In this document: positions 613-14,786 of the stretch, one piece after another
Layout of the letters: every line of letters begins with the position of its first letter
How positions within the stretch are numbered: the stretch's first letter is position 1
From: Paenarthrobacter nicotinovorans
Lineage (GTDB): Bacteria; Actinomycetota; Actinomycetes; Actinomycetales; Micrococcaceae
Length of the DNA stretch: 64,000 bases
Assembly (NCBI RefSeq): GCF_021919345.1
Contig: NZ_CP089293.1
Location: forward strand, 372,001 to 436,000
Direction of reading: 5' to 3'
Notes under the pieces: generated by a model
The model's input: only the letters and a program-made list of their open reading frames with translations
The model's database searches: none
Told to the model about the DNA's origin: nothing
Program-made: the position numbers and the translations under genes

Positions 613-2049
613 TCAGGCGGTTTCGTCTACCAATTCGGCCCGGCGCAGGCCACCACCGCGGACCCACAGTTTGTAGGCCACGAACAGGAGTACCAGCCAG
701 GTTCCGCCAACATACAGCGCAACCCGGGTGTCCTCGAAGACTCCGAGGATCACGATGACCATCGCCATGAACGCCATGGTCAGGATGGACGCAGCAGGCC
801 AGAGCGGCGAGCCGAATTCCGACGCCGGCAGGCCCTTGCGCTTGATCTCCCGCTTCATCGCGACGTGCGAAACCAGGATCATCACCCAGACCCACACGGT
901 GGCGAAGGTGGCGATCGAGGCAATGAGCACGAACACGTCTTCGGGGATGACGGCGTTCAAAACGACGCCCACCAGCAGGATGCAACCCATCATCACCACG
1001 GTCATCCACGGAACGCCGTGGCGGGAAATCTTGCTGAAGCTCTTGGGTGCGTGGCCCTGCTGTGCCAGACCAAACAGGATGCGCCCGGCCCCGAAAATGT
1101 CGCTGTTGATCGCCGAGAGCGCGGCGGTGATGACCACGGCGTTGAGGATGTGCGGAGCGGCCGGGATGCCCAGTCCGTCGAAGATCTGCACGAACGGGCT
1201 GCCGCTGCTGCCGATCTCGTTCCACGGGAAGATGCTCATCAGCACGCCCAAAGTCAGCACGTAGAACAGGAGCACCCGCACGGGCACGGTGTTGACGGCC
1301 TGCGGGATGACCTTTTTGGGGTCGGCGGCTTCGCCCGCGGTGATGCCAATCGTTTCGATTCCGCCAAAGGCAAACATCACGACGGCGAACGCTGCCAGGA
1401 GCCCTTCGAATCCGTTGGGGAACAAACCGCCGTGGTTCACGAGGTTCCCCAACCCCGGTGCCACGCCACCGCCGTCGCCCGTTTGGAAACCGAACACGAT
1501 GATCGCCGCACCGCCCACGATCATGGCGATAATCGCCACCACCTTGATCAGCGAGAACCAGAACTCAAGCTCACCAAACACCTTCACGCTGAGCAGGTTC
1601 ATGGCGCCCAGGAACAGGATGATCGCCAGCACCCAGATCCATCTGTCCACCTGTGGGAACCAGAAGCCCATGTAGATACTGAAGGCCGTGACGTCGGCGA
1701 TTGCCACGATCGCCATTTCGAACACGTAGGTCCACCCGGTTACGAAACCGGCGAAAGGCCCCAGGTAGCGGCTCGCGTATTGGCCGAACGAGCCGGACAC
1801 GGGGTGTCGGACGGCCATTTCGCCGAGGGCGCGCATCACCATGAACACGGCCGCGCCGCCGATGATGTAGGCGAGCAGGACGGCCGGTCCGGCCTTTTGG
1901 ATGGCCGACGCCGAGCCGTAGAACAGGCCGGTGCCGATCGCGGATCCGAGTGCCATGAAGCGGATGTGACGGACGTTGAGGCCTCGGCTGAGCGCCGTAC
2001 CTGCGGCCTGGAGGACAGAGCTCTCCACAGCCAGCTTGGTTTGTTGCAT
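613..2049 (-). CDS. APC/AAT-family amino-acid permease, probable histidine transporter
   Basis: This is a 478-residue inner-membrane permease of the amino acid-polyamine-organocation superfamily. It has the AAT signature near the N-terminus ([13 protein letters not shown], then [13 protein letters not shown]) and about 12 hydrophobic segments. ATG at 2049 is chosen because GAGAAGG sits 8 nt upstream; an in-frame start further up at 2124 lacks a site. AAT permeases import amino acids by proton symport. Location beside hutU/hutH and an upstream palindrome (2132-2155) of the same TGTC-N10-GACA type as other hut genes suggest histidine as substrate. That is inference, since proline, GABA or aromatic amino-acid permeases look alike. 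Confidence 0.88.
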
Positions 2050-2131
2050 AGTAAAACCTTCTCGTCTTTGGGAGGGGATCGCTATCCAGCAGATCACTTT
2101 TGACGGCCTTGTGATCGGACTCACGGGTGAT

Positions 2132-2155
2132 TGGTGTCTTTGATCGCAGACACCA
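2132..2155. promoter_or_regulatory. Palindromic operator upstream of the permease
   Basis: Arms TGGTGTCT and AGACACCA are perfect 8-bp inverted repeats around 8 bases. The 18-base core at 2135-2152 is TGTCTTTGATCGCAGACA, i.e. TGTC-N10-GACA, as at the IclR and hutU promoters. It lies 86 bp upstream of the permease ATG and 155 bp upstream of the divergent ALF-repeat gene, so it could control either. Confidence 0.6.
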
Positions 2156-2310
2156 TGCTGTGGGTCTCATCAGAGGGTGGTAAAAGTCATAGTTCCCGGT
2201 CGGATATGATGACCGCGGACAGCTCTTCAACACGGTCAGGCATCCCTCGCATTTCGCGTCGCCCCCTTTGAACTCTGTGCTGACTCTTGCATCTGTTACT
2301 TGGGGGACTC

Positions 2311-4359
2311 ATGATTTCCGTAATCCGCGCTACCCGACGCCGTTGGGCAGCTGCCGTTGTTGCCGTAGTGGCCGGGGCATCCTTGCTCTTTGCCGCACCC
2401 GCGCAGGCCTATGACGTGCCGAATTTTGAGGTTCCGAACGCCTCGCAAGCTCCCGTGCCTTTCGTGGAACGGGTGAGTGACGCCGCTGGCGTGGTTGAGC
2501 TCTGGAAGACCGGCGGTCCCGCAATCCGCACCGCCGCCGCTGCCGCCTTGGTGGGTGGGCCGGACGCGGTCCAGGCATTCCTCGACGGCGGCCAGGACGT
2601 CGCGCTGGCAGCTGACCGGAAGCAGTTGGTCACCGAGCTGACGACACGGGGGAGCGAACATGTCAGGGAGAGCGCGGTCAGGATACTGGCCACTAACGAC
2701 CCCAGCGTGATCACGAGCTTCCTGTCAAAGGGCTGGGCCGGCGCCTGGGATCTCGACCTGCGGATAACGGCCACTCGGTTCCTCAACTACTCGGGTCCCA
2801 TCCGGATGGCTGCTTCCAAGAGCCTGGACAACGGCAGTGAGGCTGTCGAGAAGTTCGTTCTCGAAGGCTGGCAAAAGACCGCTCAGGGCCAGGACCGTGA
2901 GGCGGTAGCCTACCTGACCAATTCGCCCATTGCCGCCGTCACTCGCGGAGCGCAGGCTGCTCTGGACACCTACGACCCTGAAGTCCTTGCTACATACCTG
3001 CGCTACGGTCAGTTCGTTGCCGCAGCGCAGGACCAAAAATTGACTACGGTCACCAAATCACTCGACGCTGTGAGGGCAGATATCGCAGCCAACCCTGCTG
3101 GCTCGGCAGCCGTGGCGGATCGCGCGAAGACTGCTCTGGAGAACGCGCGACACGCCGTTGATGGCCCCAAGAAGACCGACCTGAGGCGCTTGCTGGAAGA
3201 GCGGGACTATCGCTTCTCGCAGGCTTGGCCCAAGCAGGCCATAGACAAAGCCCGGCTCGCATCCCAAGAGCCCGCCAAGGCTGCATTCAAAAAGGCCGCC
3301 GCCGAGCTTCCGGCTTTGCTGTCGACGCTAACGGCCCCTGGTGCTGATCTTGATCCTCTGATCATGGAAGCCCGCCAGGCCACACTGGACCTCGCATTGG
3401 TGGGTACGCCTGAAGTGCGGAAGGCAGCTGAGGCTGCTCTGCTGGGTGGGGACTCTGCCGTCAAGGACTTCATTGCCGATGGTCACGGTCTCGCGAGCGA
3501 ACAGGACAGTGCAGCCTTTGTTAACGACAGGCAGCGTGCTTTCCAGCACATGGCCGCGGGCGGCGTGCACGTGGTCCAGGCTGCTAAGGACGCTGTTAAG
3601 TCCGTCAACCATGCAGATGTCCGGTACTTCCTCGAGTACGGACACTCCGACGCGCAGTACTTGGATAACTCGGAATTGGCCGACGGTCTCATAAGGCTCG
3701 ATTCTCCGGAGCTCCAGACTGCTGCTGGCGTAGCGATGGCGGGCGGGCGAGCGGAACTTCAGGCATTTGCATCAAGCGAACAGTTCACTGCTGCCGAAAA
3801 GGACGCGGCGAATGCCCGGCATACCGCCGCCGTAAACACCGCTCTCGCAGAGCTGTCGCGGCTCACTGACCAGGCAATCCTCGACGCCGGTAGGGCGGCT
3901 GACGCTGCGAAGGCCGCTGAAGCCGCACGCCAAGCCGAGGCCGCGCGCCAGGCCGAGGCCGCGCGCCAGGCCGAAGCCGCTGGTGGGCAGCTTGCGGCCG
4001 GCAGCGTTGATGCATCGCAGCAATCGGGAACAGGAGCAGCCCCGATCGTCATTCCGTGGCCGCGCGAGTACGCTCCCGCCGTCGGACTGGCTGAGACCGG
4101 AGCTGTCACGGAGTCCGTAGAAAAGCCCGCAGCAACGCCTTCGGCCGCACCGAGCATTTCCGTGCCGCCGACGACCTCGGCAGCAAAGGGCTCCACTTCG
4201 GTGGATTCCCAGTCACAGGAGGCGGCTGCTCCGATGGCTGCTTCTTCTGCGGGCATGAGTGGCTGGACCATCGGCCTCATCGTGGCACTGGTCCTGGCAG
4301 CAGCTGGAGCCATCACGTTCCTGTTGCGCCGCAAGGGTCCCTCCCCAGCCGAGGGATAG
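2311..4359 (+). CDS. Secreted, membrane-anchored ALF-repeat protein
   Basis: This 682-residue exported protein is of unknown function. Residues 1-33 form a signal peptide ending APAQA. The body carries at least seven ALF-type short repeats (pattern: A-A-x-x-A-L followed by D/E-A-V-x-x-F-L-x-x-G), e.g. around IRTAAAAALVGG, VRESAVRILATN and VRKAAEAALLGG. Near residue 535 is a tandem A-R-Q-A-E repeat, then a Pro/Ser/Thr-rich stalk and a C-terminal membrane helix (GWTIGLIVALVLAAAGAITF) with an RRK tail. No sortase LPxTG is present. ATG at 2311 has GGGGGA just upstream. ALF repeats are known in actinobacterial secreted proteins but have no established function. Confidence 0.85.
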   Translation: MISVIRATRRRWAAAVVAVVAGASLLFAAPAQAYDVPNFEVPNASQAPVPFVERVSDAAGVVELWKTGGPAIRTAAAAALVGGPDAVQAFLDGGQDVALAADRKQLVTELTTRGSEHVRESAVRILATNDPSVITSFLSKGWAGAWDLDLRITATRFLNYSGPIRMAASKSLDNGSEAVEKFVLEGWQKTAQGQDREAVAYLTNSPIAAVTRGAQAALDTYDPEVLATYLRYGQFVAAAQDQKLTTVTKSLDAVRADIAANPAGSAAVADRAKTALENARHAVDGPKKTDLRRLLEERDYRFSQAWPKQAIDKARLASQEPAKAAFKKAAAELPALLSTLTAPGADLDPLIMEARQATLDLALVGTPEVRKAAEAALLGGDSAVKDFIADGHGLASEQDSAAFVNDRQRAFQHMAAGGVHVVQAAKDAVKSVNHADVRYFLEYGHSDAQYLDNSELADGLIRLDSPELQTAAGVAMAGGRAELQAFASSEQFTAAEKDAANARHTAAVNTALAELSRLTDQAILDAGRAADAAKAAEAARQAEAARQAEAARQAEAAGGQLAAGSVDASQQSGTGAAPIVIPWPREYAPAVGLAETGAVTESVEKPAATPSAAPSISVPPTTSAAKGSTSVDSQSQEAAAPMAASSAGMSGWTIGLIVALVLAAAGAITFLLRRKGPSPAEG

Positions 4360-4394
4360 CCGGCTACGCCTCCGGGCAGTCGGAAAACGTCGTC

Positions 4395-4420
4395 GGAGTG
4401 TCCGGTATACCGGACACTCC
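4395..4420. promoter_or_regulatory. Perfect 26-bp palindrome, probable IclR autoregulatory operator
   Basis: The sequence 4395-4420 equals its own reverse complement. Its core TGTCCGGTATACCGGACA (4399-4416) is the best example of the TGTC-N10-GACA motif in this region. It lies 106 bp upstream of the IclR-family gene and downstream of the ALF-repeat gene, so it could also act as a terminator stem. Its recurrence at other hut genes favours an operator. Confidence 0.7.
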
Positions 4421-4465
4421 CGGCGGCCCGGTGCTGGTCAATGCCTTGTGAAAGGTGCACGCTTG

Positions 4466-4483
4466 AGTACGGGATACCGGACA
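4466..4483. promoter_or_regulatory. Second, degenerate operator copy before the IclR gene
   Basis: AGTACGGGATACCGGACA matches the upstream palindrome core at 15 of 18 positions, with the right half (ATACCGGACA) perfectly kept. It lies 43 bp before the IclR ATG, where a repressor would block transcription. Confidence 0.55.
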
Positions 4484-4526
4484 GTATGCTCCGGCGCCCC
4501 TCAAGATCCCCCAGCAGCGAGGAACC

Positions 4527-5336
4527 ATGACCACCACGCCCACCGCGCCCGGCAAGGCCACGTCCAAAGTCCCGGCTGCCGAAAACACCTTGCGCATCCT
4601 GAAACTGTTGGCTTCGCGGCGAGGGCCGATGGCGGCGTCGAATATCGCCACGGCACTGGGCCTGCCGCGGTCCAGTGTCTACCACCTTCTGGGCGTTATG
4701 GAGGCGAACGGCTTCGTCCTCCATCTGCATGAGGAGCAGCGCTACGGGCTCGGCATCAGTGCCTTCGAACTCAGCTCCGCCTATTCGCGGCAGGAGCCGT
4801 TGTCACGGCTGGGTCGCCCCATGCTGGCGTCGCTGGTCGACGTGATCGGCGAGAGCGCACACCTGGCTGTGCTCCATGGCCGCGATGTCCTTTACATCGT
4901 GGAAGAACGTGCCAAGAACCGCCCAAGCCTGGTGACCGACGTCGGGGTTCGGCTTCCCAGCCACCTCACCGCGTCCGGTCGGGCAATCCTCGCCGCCTTG
5001 CCCAAGTCGCAGGTCCGCGCCCTCTACCCGAACGCTGCGGCCTTCACGTCCCGGCACGATGTCGAGTTTCCCATCATGAAGTACTCCGCCTTGTCGTCCC
5101 ATTTGGACCAGGTGCGCCAGCGTGGCTACGCCACGGAAAACGGCGAAATCACTCCCGGGTTCGGCTCCATCGCCGTCGCCGTGACTGACCACGTTGGATG
5201 GCCGACGGCGGCAGTCGCCGTCACGTTCCTGGAGGACAAAGTGCCGGCTGAGCAATGGCCCGTACTGGCCGCGCGGATCAGGAAAGCCGCCGACGAACTG
5301 TCGGTCCGGATCCATGGTCGCCCGACGGCGGGCTGA
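4527..5336 (+). CDS. IclR-family regulator, probable hut repressor
   Basis: This 269-residue transcription factor has an N-terminal winged helix-turn-helix at about residues 15-75 (TLRILKLLASRRGPMAASNI, then GLPRSSVYHLLGVM). A C-terminal IclR effector domain follows, with HLAVLHGRDVLYIVEE, LPSHLTASGRAILA and FGSIAVAVTD. Two operator-like sites lie directly upstream. Similar sites precede the permease, hutU and hutG, so the simplest model is a histidine- or urocanate-responsive repressor of the hut regulon. The effector is not shown by the sequence. The gene is tail-to-tail with the SRPBCC gene. Confidence 0.88.
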   Translation: MTTTPTAPGKATSKVPAAENTLRILKLLASRRGPMAASNIATALGLPRSSVYHLLGVMEANGFVLHLHEEQRYGLGISAFELSSAYSRQEPLSRLGRPMLASLVDVIGESAHLAVLHGRDVLYIVEERAKNRPSLVTDVGVRLPSHLTASGRAILAALPKSQVRALYPNAAAFTSRHDVEFPIMKYSALSSHLDQVRQRGYATENGEITPGFGSIAVAVTDHVGWPTAAVAVTFLEDKVPAEQWPVLAARIRKAADELSVRIHGRPTAG

Positions 5337-5359
5337 CGCTTAGTAAGCGCCGATGCACC

Positions 5360-5803
5360 CTAGCGGCTGCCCGGCCCGGGGGAGTCGCGTTCAACCATGG
5401 CGCGGAAAGCTTCCAGCTCGCCCCGGAAACTGCCCCGGTAGGATCCCGTGGCGAAGAGTCGTCCCACCACCGTGGACACCAGTCCGCGTGTTTCGAACAG
5501 CTGCTGGATGCGCGTGCCACCACTTTCCGGGGTGAACGTGACATCCGATTCCCCTTTGAGGATCGCGTTGCCGAAGCGGGTGCGGATGTGCCGCGGCCGT
5601 TCCGCGGCGATGACTTCCGTGGGACTTGCCATCCGGCCGAACCACACCGTATAGCTGCTGCCGGCCTGGTCGGTGGAGCCAACGAGATCGGTCACGCGTG
5701 TGACGCCGCCGATCCACTCAGTAAACCTGTCAGGATCCGTCCAGGTGTCGAAAACCCGCTCCGGCGGCGCGGCGACCAAGGTGGACACTCGATACGTTGC
5801 CAT
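5360..5803 (-). CDS. SRPBCC-family (START-like) protein
   Basis: A 147-residue helix-grip-fold protein of the polyketide cyclase/AHSA1-like type. It starts with the typical strand and helix (MATYRVSTLVAAPPERVFDTW), has a middle FGNAILKGESDVTF strand region, and ends with a long amphipathic helix (FRGELEAFRAMVERD). Such proteins bind hydrophobic ligands; none can be named here. It is divergent from hutU, and the hutU operator-like site lies 47 bp upstream of its ATG, so the two may be co-regulated. The reading frame stays open for a further 1.5 kb upstream opposite hutU; that extension is an antisense shadow. Confidence 0.75.
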   Translation of the reverse strand: MATYRVSTLVAAPPERVFDTWTDPDRFTEWIGGVTRVTDLVGSTDQAGSSYTVWFGRMASPTEVIAAERPRHIRTRFGNAILKGESDVTFTPESGGTRIQQLFETRGLVSTVVGRLFATGSYRGSFRGELEAFRAMVERDSPGPGSR

Positions 5804-5849
5804 GGGTCCAGCATGCGCGCATCCGGGCGCGAAAGCGAGAGCATCCGCA

Positions 5850-5867
5850 TGTCTGTAATCCCGGACA
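5850..5867. promoter_or_regulatory. Operator-like site between the SRPBCC gene and hutU
   Basis: TGTCTGTAATCCCGGACA keeps both TGTC and GACA ends of the hut palindrome (14 of 18 matches to the site at 4399). It lies 98 bp upstream of the hutU ATG and 47 bp upstream of the divergent SRPBCC gene. Confidence 0.6.
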
Positions 5868-5965
5868 GCACCGCCCGAAAAGCCGTTCCGGCCGCTTGGT
5901 AAAGGGGCTTTAGTAGAAGCAGAAGATCTTTCCACCACACACTTCCCACAGACGAAGGAGTCACC

Positions 5966-7693
5966 ATGGCACCCGCCGATTTCACTACTGGTGCCCGTCC
6001 GGTCAAGGCCGCCCGGGGTACTGAGCTTACTGCCAAGTCGTGGCAGACCGAGGCGCCGTTGCGCATGCTGATGAACAACCTCGACCCCGAGGTCGCCGAG
6101 CGTCCGGACGACCTGGTCGTCTACGGTGGCACCGGACGCGCAGCGCGTTCCTGGGCTGCGTTCGATGCGATCACCCGGACCCTGGAAACCATGGAGAAGG
6201 ACGAAACCCTGCTGGTGCAGTCGGGTAAGCCGGTGGGTGTCTTCCGCACGAATGAGTGGGCGCCCCGTGTTCTCCTCGCCAACTCCAACCTCGTCGGTGA
6301 TTGGGCTACGTGGCCTGAGTTCCGCCGGCTCGAGGCTGAGGGCCTGATGATGTACGGGCAGATGACGGCCGGGTCCTGGATTTATATCGGCACCCAGGGC
6401 ATCCTGCAGGGCACCTACGAAACCTTTGCCGCCGTCGGAAATAAGCTCGCTGCGGAGGGCCGCCACCCCGCGCCTGCCGCTGAAGGTTCCACGGAAGGGC
6501 CGCTCGCCGGTACCTTGACCCTGACCGGTGGCTGCGGCGGCATGGGCGGTGCTCAGCCGCTGGCCGTGACGTTGAATGATGGCGCGTGCCTGATTGTTGA
6601 TGTGGACGAGTCCCGGCTGCGTCGGCGGGTGGGTAAGCGGTACCTGGACGAGGTCGAAACCGATCTGGACACCGCGATCGCCAAAGTTCAGGCCGCCAAG
6701 GACGAGCGCCGTGGCTGGTCCGTCGGTTACGTGGGCAACGCCGCTGAAGTCTTCCCCGAATTGCTGCGTCGTCATAAGGCCGGCGAAGTCACTTTTGATG
6801 TGGTCACGGACCAGACCAGTGCGCATGACCCGTTGTCTTACCTGCCGGAGGGCATCACCGTGGCTGAGTGGCACACCGAAGCCGAGGCGGATCCGGAAGG
6901 GTTCACCAAGAAGGCCCAGGCTTCCATGGCCCGGCATGTGCAGGCGATGGTGGAGTTCCAGGACGCCGGAGCTGAGGTCTTTGATTACGGAAACTCGATC
7001 CGTGACGAGGCCCGTAAGGGCGGGTATGACCGGGCGTTCGAATTCCCCGGTTTCGTTCCGGCGTACATTCGTCCCTTGTTCTGTGAGGGTTTGGGCCCGT
7101 TCCGCTGGGTCGCGCTCTCGGGCGATCCGGAAGACATCCGCGTCACCGATGAAGCCATCAAGGAGTTGTTCCCGGAGAACAAGCACCTCCACAAGTGGAT
7201 CGACGCTGCCGCGGAGCGGGTGGAGTTCGAGGGCCTGCCGGCACGTATTTGCTGGCTCGGGTACGGCGAACGCGCCAAGGCCGGGTTGTTGTTCAACCAG
7301 CTCGTCGCCGAGGGCAAGGTCAAGGCCCCGATCGTGATCGGCCGTGACCACCTGGATTCAGGGTCCGTGGCGTCCCCGTACCGTGAGACCGAGTCGATGA
7401 AGGATGGCTCGGACGCGGTCGCTGACTGGCCGCTGCTGAACGCACTGACTGCTGCATCCTCGGGCGCTACCTGGGTGTCCATCCACCACGGTGGTGGTGT
7501 CGGTATTGGCCGGTCCATCCACACTGGCCAGGTTTCCGTCGCTGACGGCACGGAACTGGCAGCCCAGAAACTGGAACGGCTCCTGACCAACGACCCCGGC
7601 ATGGGCGTCATCCGCCACGTCGACGCCGGCTACGACCGCGCCATCGAGGTCGCCAACGAACGCGGCGTCCGCATCCCCATGAACGAGAAGTAG
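5966..7693 (+). CDS. hutU: Urocanate hydratase
   Basis: A 575-residue cytoplasmic enzyme converting urocanate to imidazolonepropionate with tightly bound NAD+, the second step of histidine degradation. The length is slightly above the usual ~555. Recognisable family blocks are [20 protein letters not shown], the Gly-rich [16 protein letters not shown]-binding section, [24 protein letters not shown] and [23 protein letters not shown] at 5966 follows GAAGGAG at good spacing. hutH follows after 9 bp, so the two form an operon. Confidence 0.97.
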
Positions 7694-7702
7694 GCAACAA
7701 AA

Positions 7703-9295
7703 GTGACTATTACTACCCACGAACCCCTGACCGTCACCCTCGGCTCCAGCGGCGTGACCCCGGAAGACGTGGTCGCCGTCGCACGCCACGACGCCAAGGT
7801 GACCATCTCCCAGGAAGCCCTGGACAACGTCGCCAAGGTCCGCGCCCACATCGATGACCTCGCTACCAGCGATGTCCCCGCCTACGGCATTTCCACGGGC
7901 TTCGGCGCCCTGGCCAACCGCCACATCCCCAACGACCTCCGCACGCAGCTGCAAAAGTCGCTGATCCGCAGCCACGCCGCCGGCATGGGCCCGGCCGTGG
8001 AACGCGAAGTGGTCCGCGGCATCATGTTCCTCCGCGCCAAGACCCTGGCATCGGGCCGCACCGGCGTCCGTCCGGTGGTCCTGCAGACCATGGTGGACGT
8101 CCTCAATGCAGGCATCACCCCGCTGGTCCGCGAGTTCGGTTCGCTCGGTTGCTCCGGCGACCTCGCACCGCTGTCCCACTGCGCGCTGGTCCTCATGGGT
8201 GAAGGTGAAGCAACGGGCCCCGACGGCGAGCTCTACGGCGTTGCCGGAAAGGCGCCCGTTGCTGAGCTGCTCGCCCAGCACGGCATCGAGCCCGTCACGC
8301 TGGCTGAGAAGGAGGGCCTGGCCCTCGTCAACGGCACCGAAGGCATGCTTGGCATGCTGCTGATGGCCATCGCCGACATCCGCCTGTTGCTCGCGACGGC
8401 GGACGTCACCGCAGCGCTCAGCGTCGAGGCACTGCTGGGCACCGACCAGGTGTTCCTGCCGGAACTCCACGCAGCACTGCGTCCGCACCCCGGCCAGGCC
8501 GCCAGCGCCGACAACATGCTCCGTGTGCTGTCCAACTCGCCAATCGTTGCCTCCCACAGGATCAACGACACCAAGGTGCAGGACGCCTACTCGCTTCGTT
8601 GTGCCCCACAGGTTGCCGGCGCCGTCCGCGACACCGTGGACCACGCCGCGCTGGTGGCGTCCCGCGAACTTGCTGCCGCCATCGACAACCCCGTGGTCCT
8701 GCCCGACGGCCGCGTCACCTCCAACGGCAACTTCCACGGCGCCCCCGTGGCGTACGTCCTGGACTTCCTGGCCATCGCCGTCGCGGACCTCAGCTCCATC
8801 GCCGAGCGCCGCACGGACCGCATGCTGGACCCGGCCCGCTCGCACGGACTCCCGGCCTTCCTCGCCGGAGACCCCGGAGTGGACTCCGGCCTGATGATCG
8901 CCCAGTACACGCAGGCAGGCCTGGTCTCGGACAACAAGCGCCTGGCCGTTCCGGCATCGGTGGACTCCATCCCGAGCTCCGCCATGCAGGAAGACCACGT
9001 GTCCATGGGCTGGCACGCAGCCCGGAAGCTTCGCAAGGCCGTGGAGAACCTTCGCCGCGTGCTCGCCGTCGAACTCGTCACCAGCGCACGCGCCATTGAC
9101 ATGCGTACGCAGATGTCCGACGGCGAACTCACCCCGGGTCCTGCCGGCACGGCAGTACTTGAGGTGCTTCGCGAAGTGGTGCAGGGACCGGGAACCGACC
9201 GGTTCCTGTCGCCCGAACTCGAAGCGGCTGACCGTTTGGTTGGCTCCGGCGCGGTCCGTGCGGCCGCCGAATCCGCCGTCGGGATTTTGGCCTGA
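7703..9295 (+). CDS. hutH: Histidine ammonia-lyase
   Basis: A 530-residue enzyme that deaminates histidine to urocanate and ammonia, the first step of the hut pathway. The MIO-forming motif is FGSLGCSGDLAPLSHC, with Cys150-Ser151-Gly152 in place of the textbook Ala-Ser-Gly. Other family blocks are YGISTGFGALANRHI, LVNGTEGM, NPVVLPDGRVTSNGNFHGAP and the C-terminal SVDSIPSSAMQEDHVSMG. The start is GTG at 7703, 9 bp after hutU, without a strong ribosome-binding site, so it is probably translationally coupled. Confidence 0.97.
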   Translation: MTITTHEPLTVTLGSSGVTPEDVVAVARHDAKVTISQEALDNVAKVRAHIDDLATSDVPAYGISTGFGALANRHIPNDLRTQLQKSLIRSHAAGMGPAVEREVVRGIMFLRAKTLASGRTGVRPVVLQTMVDVLNAGITPLVREFGSLGCSGDLAPLSHCALVLMGEGEATGPDGELYGVAGKAPVAELLAQHGIEPVTLAEKEGLALVNGTEGMLGMLLMAIADIRLLLATADVTAALSVEALLGTDQVFLPELHAALRPHPGQAASADNMLRVLSNSPIVASHRINDTKVQDAYSLRCAPQVAGAVRDTVDHAALVASRELAAAIDNPVVLPDGRVTSNGNFHGAPVAYVLDFLAIAVADLSSIAERRTDRMLDPARSHGLPAFLAGDPGVDSGLMIAQYTQAGLVSDNKRLAVPASVDSIPSSAMQEDHVSMGWHAARKLRKAVENLRRVLAVELVTSARAIDMRTQMSDGELTPGPAGTAVLEVLREVVQGPGTDRFLSPELEAADRLVGSGAVRAAAESAVGILA

Positions 9296-9331
9296 CGTCG
9301 AATAAAACGCTCATTTCATGGGCAGATTTGT

Positions 9332-9372
9332 CACGCCCCGGTCTTTGTTCGCAACGCAGGCACCGGGGCGTG
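9332..9372. repeat. Inverted repeat downstream of hutH
   Basis: CACGCCCCGGT and ACCGGGGCGTG form an 11-bp perfect stem around a 19-base loop, 36 bp after the hutH stop. No clear T-run follows, so it may be a weak terminator, an RNA 3'-end stabiliser or an operator for the next gene. Confidence 0.5.
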
Positions 9373-9492
9373 GCAAATGTAGTAGAACTTATGGTGTACG
9401 TCACGTCCACGCCGAAGATGTCGTGGGCTTGACGGTCAACCGTTCACAACTCAATACACAACAGAGAACATCCACAAAGGGGTAGAAGTTCA

Positions 9493-9741
9493 ATGAAGGC
9501 ACGCGGAGCAGTCCTGTCCAGGCGAAACGCTCACTCGGCTACGGTTTCCGATTGGAAGACGCTGAAGGCCGGCGACACGGTGGAAGTGGTCAAGTACGCC
9601 CACGTCATCGCAGCCGGTCGGGTTGAGGAGGTTTCCAGCAGCGGAAACGTTGTGTGGCTTGAGCACTCAGGGCCCGGCGTCACCGAAGAGGGCAAGGAAT
9701 TGTTCATGAAGTCCGACGGCGTCACTCTCCGCCGGGCGTAG
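9493..9741 (+). CDS. Small conserved-looking protein of unknown function (82 aa)
   Basis: Not recognised. The protein is 82 residues with no signal peptide or membrane segment. Its centre (DWKTLKAGDTVEVVKYAHVI, then GRVEEVSSSGNVVWLEH) alternates hydrophobic and polar residues like a small beta-barrel. It has its own 197-bp upstream region and is followed directly by a strong terminator, so it looks like a real single-gene unit. It sits between hutH and the IS30 copy. Confidence 0.65.
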   Translation: MKARGAVLSRRNAHSATVSDWKTLKAGDTVEVVKYAHVIAAGRVEEVSSSGNVVWLEHSGPGVTEEGKELFMKSDGVTLRRA

Positions 9742-9750
9742 CTTAAACAG

Positions 9751-9811
9751 AAACCGGGGCTCGTCCCCTTCCGCGGGTAGTAGATGCGGAAGGGGACGGG
9801 CCCCGGTTTTT
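9751..9811 (+). terminator. Strong intrinsic terminator
   Basis: A long GC-rich inverted repeat starts AAACCGGGGC and pairs CGTCCCCTTCCGC with GCGGAAGGGGACG, then GCCCCGGTTTTT. The final T-run on the plus strand and the A-run on the other side suggest it works in both directions, serving the 82-aa gene and the convergent gene at 9847. Confidence 0.85.
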
Positions 9812-9846
9812 GGCGTCGCTGCCAGTGATGCCGTCAGGGGTGGCAA

Positions 9847-10068
9847 TCAGGCAGCGAGTACTTCGTGGGTCTGACCGAAGGGAACGGATTCGTCCAGCGC
9901 CACGGTGTAGGTGCCGGGCTCGTGCCTGGTCACCAGAATGCCGCAGTTGGCGTCTGCCGCTGCGTTCTTGATCAATGCATCCACGGCCTGCTCGAGTCCG
10001 TCGTGGATTTCGTCCGCCCTGGAAAAGGACAGGCGGATTTCGCGTTCTGCAGTCATTGCAGGGGTCAT
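9847..10068 (-). CDS. Small hypothetical protein (73 aa)
   Basis: Not recognised. A 73-residue acidic protein starting MTPAMTAEREIRLSFSRADE, with an amphipathic helix (IHDGLEQAVDALIKNAAAD) followed by strand-like GILVTRHEPGTYTVALDE. The ATG at 10068 is preceded by GGAGG at 7-nt spacing, which decides this start over the longer frame. Located between the shared terminator and the left tip of the IS30 copy. Confidence 0.65.
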   Translation of the reverse strand: MTPAMTAEREIRLSFSRADEIHDGLEQAVDALIKNAAADANCGILVTRHEPGTYTVALDESVPFGQTHEVLAA

Positions 10069-10186
10069 TTGGGGGCCTCCTATTACTTGCCGCATGCGAG
10101 GGCGACCCATCAATCATAGTCGGAGCTTGCCGATTATTTGTAAGATGACTGGCAACGGAGTGACCCGGGTCTCAGGCGTGCCGAGG

Positions 10187-11501
10187 TGGCAGTTAATGCC
10201 AATGTTTGGACGGCAAAGTCATAGGGTCGTTGCAACGCTCTGATTGATGGAGCGTTTTATGGTCAAGTTGTTCCCCAAGGCTGCGCGTACTGAGTTTCTT
10301 GATTTGGTGTGTGCGGGGATGCCTGTTCGTACTGCTGCCCGGCGTGTCGGGGCGGTGCACGCTACCGGGCACAATTGGTGGGTTCAGTCTGGCCTAATGA
10401 TGACCGTGAACCGGGGTGCTACCGGAGGTCTTGCCGATCCTGCTCCTTCAGTCGGGGGCCCTGGCCGTGCGTTGGGTCTGGAAGAGCGAGGCATGATCCA
10501 GATGGGTGTGCGGATGGGCCTCAGTTACGCGAAGATCGGCGCATTGATCGGGCGGGATAAGTCCGTAGTTTGGCGGGAGGTCAAACGCCACACGAGCGCG
10601 GACGGGAAGTACTACGCCTCGGTCGCTCACGCCAAAGCGCATCAGGACAGGCGCCGTCCCAAACCCTTCAGGCTGGCCAAGGACGAGGGTTTGTGCCGGC
10701 TGGTCGGCGTCTGGATGGATGACGGGTGGAGTCCGAAGCTGATCTCCTCGATGTTGGCGTATTACTTCGGTGACGATCAGACTATGCAGGTGAGCCACGA
10801 GACGATCTACCAGGCCCTTTACGTCCAAACCCGCGGGAACCTGCGGGCGGACCTGGCCGAAAAGCTCAGCCTGAAACGCAAACAACGCATCCCCCACGGC
10901 ACTGACCGGCGCGCCAACAGCCCCTATAAAGAGGCCTTCAAGATCAGCCAACGTCCCGCCGAGGTCCAGGACCGGGCAGTGCCCGGGCATTGGGAAGGTG
11001 ACCTCATCATCGGCGCCAACGGGACAGCGATCGGAACCTTGGTGGAACGCTCAACCCGGTTCACGATCCTGCTGCACCTGCCAGGGGACCACACCGCGGA
11101 AACCGTTGCCGCCGCGATGATCCGGGAGATGGCCTCCCTCCCGGATCACCTGCGCCGGTCGATCACCTGGGACCGCGGCACCGAGCTGGCCGACTACGCA
11201 AAAATCCAGACCGCTCTCGATACGACGATGTACTTCTGCGACCCGCACTCGCCCTGGCAGCGCGGCACCAACGAAAACACCAACCGGCTCCTGCGGTTCT
11301 GGTTCGAGAAAGGCACTGACTTTTCAGTGCACACCCCCGAGGACATCCGCCTGGTCGCAGCGAAACTCAACCGCCGCCCCAGACCAACACTGAACCTCGA
11401 GACCCCAGCCAACCGGCTAAACCAGCTGCTACAAGCGGCCTAACCCCCAGCGTTGCTCCCACCAATTGACTTTGCCGACAAAACACCCGCATTAACTGCC
11501 A
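10187..11501 (+). mobile_element. IS30-family insertion sequence, copy 2 (complete, 1315 bp)
   Basis: The ends are imperfect 35-bp inverted repeats at 10187-10221 and 11467-11501, matching at 30 of 35 positions; both begin TGGCAGTTAATGC and end CGGCAAAGTCA. One transposase gene fills the interior. No 2-3 bp target duplication is evident (left flank ends GAGG, right flank begins ATTC), which could mean rearrangement after insertion. The right tip is 28 bp from the 3' end of tRNA-Cys. A second copy in inverted orientation lies at 1-597. Confidence 0.93.
10247..11443 (+). CDS. IS30-family transposase
   Basis: A 398-residue DDE transposase. Residues ~76-115 contain the helix-turn-helix of the IS30 class (GLSYAKIGALIGRDKSVVWREV). 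The catalytic core follows the IS30 pattern: Asp252 in GHWEGDLIIG, Asp309 in ITWDRGTELADY and Glu343 in SPWQRGTNENTN. All three residues are present and the frame is uninterrupted, so the enzyme should be active. Starts at TTG 10244, ATG 10247 or ATG 10259 are all possible; the first ATG is used here. Transcription runs outward relative to the hut block. Confidence 0.95.
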   Translation: MERFMVKLFPKAARTEFLDLVCAGMPVRTAARRVGAVHATGHNWWVQSGLMMTVNRGATGGLADPAPSVGGPGRALGLEERGMIQMGVRMGLSYAKIGALIGRDKSVVWREVKRHTSADGKYYASVAHAKAHQDRRRPKPFRLAKDEGLCRLVGVWMDDGWSPKLISSMLAYYFGDDQTMQVSHETIYQALYVQTRGNLRADLAEKLSLKRKQRIPHGTDRRANSPYKEAFKISQRPAEVQDRAVPGHWEGDLIIGANGTAIGTLVERSTRFTILLHLPGDHTAETVAAAMIREMASLPDHLRRSITWDRGTELADYAKIQTALDTTMYFCDPHSPWQRGTNENTNRLLRFWFEKGTDFSVHTPEDIRLVAAKLNRRPRPTLNLETPANRLNQLLQAA

Positions 11502-11528
11502 ATTCGGAGGACGATCGCCGGGACCGAT

Positions 11529-11602
11529 TGGACGTGGTGGCGGGATTCGAACCCGCGTACGCTGCTTTGCAGGCAGCTCCCTGGCCTCTTGGGTACACCA
11601 CG
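11529..11602 (-). tRNA. tRNA-Cys (GCA)
   Basis: A cloverleaf on the minus strand: acceptor CGTGGTG pairs with CACCACG, the anticodon stem GCTGC/GCAGC holds loop CTGCAAA (anticodon GCA), and the T-arm is GCGGG-TTCGAAT-CCCGC. The discriminator base is T at 11532, followed by an encoded CCA (11531-11529). The IS30 right tip lies just downstream. Confidence 0.95.
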
Positions 11603-11653
11603 TGCAGTCGACACTAGGTGCGTGGGTCAGGGGCTTACAACATTCGTTGCGCA

Positions 11654-11693
11654 GGCTTTCGCAGGGCTACGCGGGCTTTCGCGCGGCTACGCA
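11654..11693. repeat. Two tandem 20-bp imperfect repeats
   Basis: GGCTTTCGCAGGGCTACGCG (11654-11673) is followed at once by GGCTTTCGCGCGGCTACGCA (11674-11693), 17 of 20 identical. It overlaps the 3' end of the membrane-protein gene that stops at 11687 and is probably a local duplication. Confidence 0.6.
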
Positions 11694-12154
11694 GTATTGC
11701 CCTTGGTTGCCGTCAATGACACGCGTTTGAGTAGTCCTGTGACCCCGGCAGCAACCATGAGAGTCAGGATGGCTGCGGCCATGTGCGTATAGAGCATGAT
11801 GTGTGGCGAACCACCGCTGAAGCCAGCCGCTGCCGGCGGATCACCTGGACCTGGTGCGGCGCTGTGGAGGTGCTCCACCCATCCACTCCCGGGGTAGTAA
11901 CCGCCGAATGCAGCGAACCCAAAGTGCAGCAGTTGCTGCGCCACACCTGACACCAGCAGCAGGATCAATGGCCCTTGGACCCAGCGGGCCAGGAGTTGGG
12001 CCCCCAGGCAGCACAGTGCGGCGAAGCCAAGCAGAACGGGAAGGGCCGGAGCGCTGCCGCCCGCCGTCAGGTGCGCCGCCAGTCCCAGGCCGACGGCCAG
12101 CAGCCCGGAGACCCAGGCCCACTTGTCCTGCACAGGAACTGCGCGCATCGCCAT
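11687..12154 (-). CDS. Small integral membrane protein (about 155 aa)
   Basis: Function not recognised. Hydropathy suggests four membrane helices (WVSGLLAVGLGLAAHLTAG; LPVLLGFAALCCLGAQLLA; GPLILLLVSGVAQQLLHFGF; MAAAILTLMVAAGVTGLL). A loop between helices 3 and 4 has His residues (HLHSAAPGPG, PHIMLYTHM) that could bind a metal, which is speculative. ATG at 12154 has GGAGG five bases upstream; in-frame starts at 12166 (GTG) and 12148 are alternatives. Confidence 0.7.
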   Translation of the reverse strand: MAMRAVPVQDKWAWVSGLLAVGLGLAAHLTAGGSAPALPVLLGFAALCCLGAQLLARWVQGPLILLLVSGVAQQLLHFGFAAFGGYYPGSGWVEHLHSAAPGPGDPPAAAGFSGGSPHIMLYTHMAAAILTLMVAAGVTGLLKRVSLTATKGNTA

Positions 12155-12208
12155 CCTTCCCTCCACACAGGCTAAGCGGCGAAGGCCGGAGGGAAAAGGG
12201 GCGGGCGA

Positions 12209-13156
12209 CTATCCCAGGAGCGTGTTCACCAAACGTGCTGCAACTTTCGCAGTCCGGGAATCAACGTCGAATTCCGGATTCAGTTCGGCGACATCAACGT
12301 GCAGCAACTTCCCGCTGGCGGCAACCTGCCGGCAAACCGCGCTGATCACGGGCAGCGGGACGCCATAGGCCGCAGGAGCGCTCACCCCGGGTGCCACCGA
12401 GGCCGGCATCACGTCGAGGTCGATCGTGAGGTACAGGACATCCACGCCAGCCAGGAAATCCGCTACAAAAACCTCCACGGCTTCCGGTGAGCATTGCTCG
12501 TCCAGCAGATACTTCACGCCGAGGCGTTGCGCCGTGTCAAAAAGGGTCCGGGTATTGTTCGGCTCGGAAATTCCGACGACGGCGTACTGCAGTTCGCGTC
12601 CGGCGGCGGCCTCCGCCCGGGCCATCTGAAGGAACGGCGTGCCCGAGCTCGGTGTGGGCTCATCCCTTAGGTCAAAGTGGGCATCAAGATTCAGCACACC
12701 CAGCCGCTTGCCCTGGACCACGTCCGAGCCGGCGACGCCCAAGTAGCTGGCAAACGCGGTCTCGTGGCCTCCGCCCAGCACCACGGTGAGGTTACCGGCG
12801 TCGAGCAATCCCGAGATGGCATGGCCGGCGCGCTCCTGGCCCGCTTCCAGCGAGTCGCCCTCCACAACCACATCGCCGGCGTCGAACACGTCCCGTTCCA
12901 GGTGGTAAGCCAGCGGTCCCAGTACCGAACGGATGGCGGCCGGCGCCGCGGCGGCACCCGTGCGGCCCTTGTTGCGTCGAACGCCGGCGTCACTGCAGAA
13001 CCCAAGCACGACGGCGGGACGCGAGGCGGTGCTGGCCGTTGCGGGCGTGTGCGGGGTGACGGCCTGCCACCAGCGGCGGTGCGCAACGCCGTCGCCGTCG
13101 AAACGGCCGGTCCACGGGGCGGGGCTGACATCTACAATTACGGCGCGTGTTTCCAT
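12209..13156 (-). CDS. hutG: Formimidoylglutamase (arginase/ureohydrolase family)
   Basis: A 315-residue enzyme that would hydrolyse N-formimidoyl-glutamate to glutamate and formamide, the last hut step. The binuclear Mn site is visible: GGGHETA, LNLDAHFDLR (Asp-x-His-x-x-x-Asp type) and TIDLDVMPAS. Assignment as formimidoylglutamase rather than agmatinase or arginase rests on the hut context and the upstream operator-like site at 13210-13227. The gene is separated from hutUH by the IS30 copy, tRNA-Cys and a membrane-protein gene. hutI is not in the window. Confidence 0.88.
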   Translation of the reverse strand: METRAVIVDVSPAPWTGRFDGDGVAHRRWWQAVTPHTPATASTASRPAVVLGFCSDAGVRRNKGRTGAAAAPAAIRSVLGPLAYHLERDVFDAGDVVVEGDSLEAGQERAGHAISGLLDAGNLTVVLGGGHETAFASYLGVAGSDVVQGKRLGVLNLDAHFDLRDEPTPSSGTPFLQMARAEAAAGRELQYAVVGISEPNNTRTLFDTAQRLGVKYLLDEQCSPEAVEVFVADFLAGVDVLYLTIDLDVMPASVAPGVSAPAAYGVPLPVISAVCRQVAASGKLLHVDVAELNPEFDVDSRTAKVAARLVNTLLG

Positions 13157-13168
13157 GCTTTAAGCAGA

Positions 13169-13207
13169 CCGGACCCGGACTGCCAATACCAGCAGTTCCG
13201 GGTCCGG
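13169..13207. terminator. Strong hairpin between the NCS2 permease and hutG
   Basis: CCGGACCCGGA (13169-13179) pairs perfectly with TCCGGGTCCGG (13197-13207), extended by CTG/CAG. Reading leftward it follows the permease stop, so it probably terminates that gene. It would also fall in the hutG leader if hutG transcription starts upstream of it. Confidence 0.6.
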
Positions 13208-13209
13208 GG

Positions 13210-13227
13210 TGTCTGAAATACCGGAAT
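13210..13227. promoter_or_regulatory. Degenerate hut operator upstream of hutG
   Basis: TGTCTGAAATACCGGAAT matches the site at 4399 at 13 of 18 positions, including TGTC and ATACCGGA. It lies 53 bp upstream of the hutG ATG and just past the permease stop codon. Confidence 0.5.
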
Positions 13228-13229
13228 GC

Positions 13230-14672
13230 CTACTTGACGCCCAGGAGTTCCTCAACGGTTCCGATGCCGAAGAAGAGCAGGAACGCAGCGGCCACAGCCC
13301 ACATCAAGGGGTGGACTTCGCGGGCGCGGCCCTGGAAGGTGCGGATCAGCACGAACGAGATGAACCCGGCACCCAGGCCGTTGGCGATGGAGTACGTGAA
13401 CGGCATCAAGGCGATGGTCAGGAACGCGGGAATCCCGACTCCCCAGTCCTGCCAGTCGATCTTCCCCACCTGGGACACCATCATGAAGCCCACAACCACC
13501 AGCGCGGGGGCCACGGCTTCGAACGGCACCAGGTTGATCAGCGGTGTGAAGAACATGGCAATAAGGAAGAGAACGCCGGTCACGATCGACGCCAGGCCGG
13601 TGCGGGCACCCTCGCCGATGCCCGCACCGGATTCAACGAAGATCTGGTTGGAGGAAACCGAGGCCCCGCCGCCGACGATGGCACCAAGGGCGTCCACCTG
13701 CAGCACGCGGTCCACGTTCGGGATGTTGCCGTCCTTGTCCACCGTTCCGGCCTCATTGGCCAGGCCCACCATGGTGCCCATGGCGTCGAAGAAGATGCTC
13801 AGCAGGATCACGAATGCCAGCAGCGCCGCGGCGATGAAGCCGAGGTGTTCGAAGGCCCCGAAGGGGTTGGCCTTGCCGATCAGGGAGAGGTCCGGAGCGC
13901 CCCACTCCGACAAAGTGGGGGCCACCAGGGACCAGCCACGGGGGTTGACGTTCTTGCCATCGAAGCTGGGGCCGATGTGGAGCGTGAATTCGAGGATCGC
14001 AGCCAGAGCGGTGGAGACCACGATGCCGATCAGGATGGCGCCTCGGACCTTGCGGACCACCAGGGCGATGGTCAGGATCAGACCGACGGCAAACACCAAA
14101 GTGGGCCAGCCCATGAGCTTCCCGTCAACACCGAGTCCCAGCGGAACCGTCGTGCCCGCAGCGTCCGGGATGCGCCGGACGAAACCGGCGTTCACCAGGC
14201 CGATCAGGGCAATGAACAAGCCGATGCCCACCACGATCGCCGTCTTCAACGCCTCCGGCACAGCCTTGAAAACCGCGGTGCGGAAGCCGGTGAGCACCAG
14301 GATGAGCATCGTGACGCCGGAGAGGACAACAAGGCCCATCATGTCGGGCCACGTCAGCTGCGGGTGCGAGGCCACGGTAACCGCGACGAACGCATTCACG
14401 CCCAGCCCGGTGGCCACAGCGAAGGGGTGCTTGGCCCAGGCGCCCATGAGGATGGTCAGGATGCCGGCGACGAACGCCGTGGTGGCTGCGACCGCGGTGA
14501 AGCCCAGGGAAGCTCCGCTGGAGTCTGCCCCCGAGAGGATCAGCGGGTTCAGCACAACGATGTAGCTCATGGCGAAGAATGTCGCGAAGCCGCCACGGAT
14601 TTCCCGTGAGTACGTGGAGCCACGTTCGGAAATCTTGAAATAGCGGTCCACTGCAGAACCTTGTTTAAGCAT
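13230..14672 (-). CDS. NCS2-family purine permease (AzgA/PbuG-like)
   Basis: A 480-residue membrane transporter with about 12-14 hydrophobic segments. The N-terminus (FKISERGSTYSREIRGGFATF, then SYIVVLNPLIL) is typical of the AzgA/PbuG branch that imports hypoxanthine, guanine or adenine by proton symport, rather than the uracil/xanthine branch. Mid-protein blocks include GLGVNAFVAVTV and GGGASVSSNQIFVESGAGIG. ATG at 14672 has GGAGA about 8 nt upstream. It may feed purines to nitrogen metabolism beside the hut genes; exact substrate unknown. Confidence 0.88.
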   Translation of the reverse strand: MLKQGSAVDRYFKISERGSTYSREIRGGFATFFAMSYIVVLNPLILSGADSSGASLGFTAVAATTAFVAGILTILMGAWAKHPFAVATGLGVNAFVAVTVASHPQLTWPDMMGLVVLSGVTMLILVLTGFRTAVFKAVPEALKTAIVVGIGLFIALIGLVNAGFVRRIPDAAGTTVPLGLGVDGKLMGWPTLVFAVGLILTIALVVRKVRGAILIGIVVSTALAAILEFTLHIGPSFDGKNVNPRGWSLVAPTLSEWGAPDLSLIGKANPFGAFEHLGFIAAALLAFVILLSIFFDAMGTMVGLANEAGTVDKDGNIPNVDRVLQVDALGAIVGGGASVSSNQIFVESGAGIGEGARTGLASIVTGVLFLIAMFFTPLINLVPFEAVAPALVVVGFMMVSQVGKIDWQDWGVGIPAFLTIALMPFTYSIANGLGAGFISFVLIRTFQGRAREVHPLMWAVAAAFLLFFGIGTVEELLGVK

Positions 14673-14786
14673 GAAGGTCTCCGGGTATTGGGGGGAGTGT
14701 GCTCTCAAATCCTATGCCGTTGAATGTGGGAGCTTCGGACCATTCCCCTAGTCTGTAAGGAAGCCAACACTAGGAGAAACCGCCCC

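Follow-up and report, generated by a model that had tools for sequence, protein, structure and literature searches.

In this work we analysed a window of 64,000 nucleotides, meaning the whole stretch from positions 372,001 to 436,000 of Paenarthrobacter nicotinovorans contig NZ_CP089293.1 (assembly GCF_021919345.1), in which histidine utilization (hut) genes accompany a gene for an IclR-family regulator. Five palindromic sites, located upstream of an amino-acid permease gene, of the iclR gene (two sites), of hutU and of hutG, are very probably bound by a HutR-type regulator that governs the genes of histidine uptake and breakdown, and at the structural genes the site stands at a fixed distance of 41 bp from a -10-like hexamer. 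By its protein family and its operator motif, the iclR product is a probable counterpart of HutR of Corynebacterium resistens, from which this type of regulon is already known, and the promoter geometry suggests that HutR turns the hut genes on and does not simply block them. The combination of a HutR counterpart, operators forming a regulon, activation at structural genes and repression of its own gene appears likely to us. The features of the locus are listed in Table 1.

Probable operators upstream of the histidine utilization genes

An initial annotation of this DNA had proposed that a TGTC-N10-GACA operator, with the consensus TGTCYGnnATnCCGGACA, links the permease, iclR, hutU and hutG promoters in an IclR regulon. 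All five motif sequences are present at the coordinates of Table 1, and the palindrome described around the 4399 site is indeed perfect over 26 bp. The TGTC-N10-GACA form itself is exact at 2135, 4399 and 5850, whereas the sites at 4466 (AGTACGGGATACCGGACA) and 13210 (TGTCTGAAATACCGGAAT) are each two letters off; the permease site, like that of hutG, is degenerate. A loose version of the motif (TGTCNNNNATNNCNGACA, at most two mismatches) matches the window 26 times where 13.4 matches (standard deviation 4.3) are expected, and since this enrichment is only about twofold the loose motif by itself is weak evidence. It is also what favours a view in which the palindromes arose by chance or are artefacts of coding or repeat sequence. 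That view, to which we give practically no credence, is contradicted by the excess of a tight pattern (TGTCYGNNATNCCRGACA, at most one mismatch: 4 matches, in 2 places on both strands, against 0.01 expected), by the conservation of the sites as against control genes of the same loci, and by the spacing found in hold-out loci, both described below.

The operators look real because they are conserved in relatives, which settles the question. Named relatives with the IclR gene are mainly Paenarthrobacter, Arthrobacter and Pseudarthrobacter records. From 121 iclR loci of the genus, those with an identical iclR sequence were removed as duplicates, which left 109 unique loci (the genus loci). Gene starts were placed by homology and the best match was sought from -300 to +60 of each start, upstream regions cut by the end of a locus being left out (permease 2, hutU 3, hutG 2, hutH 1, ncs2 7). 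With at most two mismatches, the motif was found upstream of iclR in 109/109 loci, of hutU in 98/98 and of hutG in 39/39; conservation upstream of these orthologues, one of the checks set by the initial annotation, is observed. Permease upstream regions carried it in 36/81 loci, and in 77/81 when three mismatches were allowed. Even at this relaxed threshold the motif was found upstream of hutH in 0/91 and upstream of ncs2 in 0/29 of the same loci, and letter-shuffled upstream regions contained a match with two mismatches or fewer in 1/545 (iclR), 2/490 (hutU), 0/195 (hutG) and 0/405 (permease) cases. These counts, the hutH and ncs2 controls and the match found at hutI by the genome scan (see below) bear out the proposed operator shared by the permease, iclR, hutU(H) and hutG as an IclR regulon, roughly in the form of the consensus given above.

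The sites also occur across the class. In a class-wide draw, a match at E 1e-50 or better was obtained in 94 of 296 genomes, 3 of which belong to the genus of the window, and loci were retrieved for 80 of the remaining 91 (identities about 43-64%). A hut gene lies within the retrieved stretch in 76/80 of these class loci. Among the 73 divergent pairs of iclR and a hut gene, a site within two mismatches of the motif is present in 68, and one without any mismatch in 38; where, in a few pairs, iclR and the hut gene are 2-3.7 kb apart, the entire gap was searched for the best site. The conserved sites might be bound by some other regulator, the IclR gene being a mere neighbour, as the distance of hutI and hutG from iclR could suggest. 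This is very improbable: a site is present upstream of iclR itself in every genus locus, the IclR orthologue and the site co-occur across the class, and the published HutR motif is almost identical.

The hutI gene is absent from the window. A genome scan with the motif, made without hutI, returned nine one-mismatch places outside the window, one of which is AGTCCGGAATCCCGGACA at C1:1473486, and a separate search for hutI placed the gene at C1:1473641, 1.1 Mb from the window, with this site just upstream. A site with at most two mismatches precedes hutI in 30/30 genus loci examined, from 60 genomes with a hutI match. The hutI operator is located within an upstream FAD-dependent oxidoreductase gene, in its 3' end, and this gene stops a few bases before hutI (operator 1501-1518 and oxidoreductase gene 463-1560 of the retrieved piece L007). 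The scan also bears in part on the objection, raised with the initial proposal, that the motif might occur at random genome-wide: one of the nine outside places is the hutI site, two track the gene for an alanine racemase, and long open frames hold the remaining six. At two mismatches the genome holds 76 + 83 motif matches against 27 + 27 for a backward control pattern, and many of these matches must be due to chance.

The two racemase sites, at C1:1203126 and 1203341, are near-exact, 215 bp apart within the alanine racemase gene, and precede an amino-acid permease gene. Of 28 genus loci, 7 have both sites (two mismatches at most); each of these 7 belongs to the 11 loci with the racemase gene, and 0/17 of those that lack the gene have the sites. 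They track the racemase coding sequence, not the permease behind it, and were therefore excluded from the regulon.

A fixed distance between operator and -10 hexamer

Alignment of the promoters on their operators revealed a conserved block at a single distance. In the window genome, all four structural-gene promoters (permease, hutU, hutG and hutI) have a -10-like hexamer that starts exactly 41 bp past the operator. At this position in relatives, hutG has TGAGCT in 27, TGTGCT in 6 and TCTGCT in 3 of the 36 loci that remained after rows failing a position filter or cut were dropped, and hutI has AAGAAT in 16 and AACAAT in 14 of 30 loci; for the permease, low-identity paralogues were left out and a half-site filter left 58 rows. 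The hutG operator starts at -71 from the homology-inferred start in 35/36 loci and at -70 in one. In the window genome hutG and hutI show the full layout (operator, 41 bp, hexamer, 6 nt, ATG) and are apparently leaderless. The common-offset score of the four window-genome promoters, calculated with weighted -10 letters, was matched by 6/5000 dinucleotide shuffles and 5/5000 independent slides; with equal weights these figures were 20/5000 and 32/5000.

As the 41-bp offset was first seen post hoc, it was fixed as a prediction before 40 further class loci were looked at (for 14 of the genomes, short pieces had been retrieved earlier but left unexamined). Loci that have no divergent hut partner were dropped (3/40 in the first class set, in which the rule was seen, and 4/40 in the hold-out), and pairs whose best site has more than two mismatches were left unscored for spacing (4/37 and 1/36, respectively). 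In the hold-out, 35 of the 36 divergent pairs have a site, and T....T is found at 41±1 in 33/35 (T...AT in 32), other offsets giving a mean of 1.6 and a maximum of 9. The first class set gave 29/33, hence 62/68 for both sets. In the 26 hold-out loci where the distance is exactly 41, the -10 is mostly TGnAAT, the -35 is weak, with T at -35 in 22, and a start codon lies 6 nt (20 loci) or 7 nt (5 loci) past the hexamer, so the mRNAs of these loci look leaderless.

The interval between the permease operator and its -10 hexamer contains another palindrome, CGTGAGTCCGATCACA (2110-2125, minus strand), which we take to be CRP/FNR-like. It is centred near -36.5 of the inferred start, and in the consensus from an alignment of 57 loci the same letters are for the most part prominent.

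Activation or release from repression

Class I activators bind as dimers to a site located upstream of the -35 element, at a fixed distance, in promoters whose -35 is weak, and exert a positive effect by way of the alpha subunit of RNA polymerase. The promoters described here have a layout of this type, with a site at a fixed distance upstream of a weak -35, the starts being deduced from the hexamer. Activation by HutR is proposed because the fixed phasing at about -62.5 and the poor -35 together make a class I layout. HutR would bind operators of the type TGTCYGnnATnCCRGACA, one each at the permease gene, hutUH, hutG and the distant hutI, plus two at its own gene. With the hexamer set at -12 to -7, it would be centred at about -62.5 at the structural genes and, once induced, probably by histidine or a breakdown product, would recruit polymerase to the hutUH, hutG, hutI and permease promoters with their weak -35; at its own gene, an operator over or beside the start would limit HutR synthesis. 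We consider it reasonably probable that throughout the class HutR functions as an activator with rigid phasing, at about -62.5 of promoters that for the most part are leaderless (operator, 41 bp, TGnAAT, 6 nt, ATG), acting otherwise than by relief of repression, and that it represses its own gene.

The same regulon could be controlled by HutR as a classical repressor, acting through upstream contact, looping or polymerase holding and released by urocanate or histidine. The IclR family is described as comprising repressors, activators and dual regulators, the hut regulator HutC of Pseudomonas is called a repressor, and autorepression is plausible at iclR. Repression of the structural genes is nevertheless unlikely, if worth keeping in view: the operator lies outside the core promoter, with its end 41 bp before the -10 and at one distance (41±1) in most scored class loci, and the -35 elements are weak.

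At the regulator's own promoter, the second operator, O2, is present in all 40 loci listed, and its distance from the first, O1, is 67-68 bp in 35 of the 39 loci that have both (65, 66, 66 and 78 bp in the others). In 19 of 50 adjacent divergent pairs, a candidate iclR start follows the operator centre by 15-24 nt. The presence of O2 and an operator over or beside the hutR start fit, weakly, with negative autoregulation. O2 is better conserved than O1, and its non-palindromic AGTAC left half is kept in aligned relatives. A placement of O2 inside a TTGAGT/TATGCT promoter was dropped, TATGCT not being conserved in relatives.

Several points weigh against a HutR regulon activated in this way. Activation is inferred solely from the promoter geometry, and the IclR family, which includes repressors and dual regulators, is reported to have sites whose centres mostly lie between -20 and -80 relative to gene starts, the peak being at -22. 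For the permease, the operator is degenerate, a half-site filter selected the 58 rows, and where the gene is adjacent to iclR its best match can be O1 of iclR. O1 itself has no common or good -10 hexamer at 41 bp in the genus alignment, and in the other 31 of the 50 adjacent pairs the candidate iclR starts lie elsewhere or none was found. In the class set, 4/80 loci have no hut gene within the retrieved stretch, the unscored pairs have no site within two mismatches, and the hexamer at 41±1 is missing in 4/33 scored sites of the first set and 2/35 of the hold-out; of 8 extra Corynebacterium-family loci, only 4 show a site and T....T at 41 before a hut gene. Lastly, close kinship among the genus loci makes their counts non-independent, and the hutI operator, being located within the end of the upstream coding sequence, may owe part of its conservation to coding constraint.

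What emerges is a testable map of the histidine regulon for soil bacteria of the Arthrobacter type, remote hutI included, and one spacing rule (operator + 41 bp = -10) predicts the starts of hut transcription across many genera.

The locus and its kinship with known systems

Table 1. Predicted regulatory elements and genes of the hut locus (window coordinates; a dot marks a feature assigned to neither strand)
Feature	Position	Strand	Remarks
Permease HutR operator (predicted)	2135..2152	-	Degenerate; minus-strand reading TGTCTGCGATCAAAGACA
Permease -10-like hexamer TCTGCT	2088..2093	-	41 bp from operator; TCTGCT 57, TGTGCT 1 of 58 filtered loci
Perfect 26-bp palindrome upstream of iclR, with 18-bp operator O1 (4399-4416)	4395..4420	.	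O1-type site in relatives
Second iclR operator O2, proposed autorepression site	4466..4483	+	105 loci aligned
hutUH HutR operator (predicted)	5850..5867	+	Conserved in relatives
hutU -10-like hexamer TTTAGT	5909..5914	+	41 bp from operator; TTTAGT 89, TCTACT 8, TGTACT 1 of 98 loci
hutG HutR operator (predicted)	13210..13227	-	Directly past stop of upstream ncs2 gene
hutG -10-like hexamer TCTGCT	13163..13168	-	6 nt before ATG; apparently leaderless
APC amino-acid permease, ProY-like; probably the histidine permease of the regulon (substrate inferred)	613..2049	-	Pfam AA_permease, 398 bits
iclR, proposed hutR, IclR-family regulator of histidine utilization	4527..5336	+	HTH_IclR and IclR_C above Pfam cut-off
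hutU, urocanate hydratase	5966..7693	+	TIGR01228 above cut-off
hutH, histidine ammonia-lyase, second gene of hutUH unit	7703..9295	+	TIGR01225 above cut-off
hutG, formimidoylglutamase	12209..13156	-	TIGR01227 above cut-off
ncs2, NCS2-type permease	13230..14708	-	Profile match
ALF-repeat protein	2311..4359	+	Profile match
SRPBCC protein	5360..5803	-	Profile match
IS30 transposase	10244..11443	+	Profile match

The permease has ProY as its best NCBIfam match, at 612 bits, below the cut-off of 736, and its gene precedes iclR in divergent orientation in 81/109 unique genus loci. The genes for the ALF-repeat and SRPBCC proteins are found in the hut cluster of only 13/109 and 14/109 genus loci, respectively. 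Two inverted arms of 597 nt, 99% complementary and forming parts of two IS30 copies (1-597 and 10187-10783), flank the block from the permease to hutUH, which could move or invert as a unit; hutG is outside.

The closest known system is that of Corynebacterium, whose hut clusters include hutR, an IclR gene (PMC3350403). The HutR motif of C. resistens DSM 45100 is given as GTCTGWWATWCCAGAC in a table entry (Schroder et al. 2012 via Table 1, PMC8222616). The motif of the window is this palindrome with additional C/T and A/G freedom: the core GTCYG..AT..CRGAC is common to both, and the best sites of the window are 2 to 4 letters off the strict form of that entry. The exact GTCTGWWATWCCAGAC occurs in 7/121 iclR upstream regions of relatives (duplicates included). 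The IclR protein of the window is 42-45% identical to four named Corynebacterium proteins other than that of C. resistens, and residues P47, R48, S49, Y52, L54 and L55 of the helix-turn-helix are invariant in the Corynebacterium alignment, the first three in the recognition helix region. One genome, assigned to Corynebacterium from its named protein hits, has hutG, iclR, hutU, hutI and hutH together and, before hutU, a one-mismatch site with TACATT at +41.

The C. resistens system shares with the present one an IclR regulator encoded with the hut genes and a near-identical palindromic operator. It differs in that here hutI lies 1.1 Mb away and has its own site, iclR has two operators, half-sites are often of the CCGG type, and the permease is included. 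The motif and the kind of regulator being already published, what is new here is the fixed 41-bp geometry between operator and -10. Such a spacing is unmentioned in the literature surveyed, which did not cover the original description of HutR, and its novelty is accordingly unconfirmed.

Among other IclR regulators, those of the PobR/PcaU/MhpR type are grouped with HutR by the motif class GTNCG-N5-6-CGNAC (PMC8222616), whereas they govern aromatic-compound pathways. HutC of Pseudomonas is likewise a local regulator of histidine utilization and differs in belonging to the GntR family and in being called a repressor. If HutR is an activator, hut promoters of the leaderless kind might find use as expression parts that respond to histidine, and control of the pathway would be opposite in sign to that exerted by HutC.

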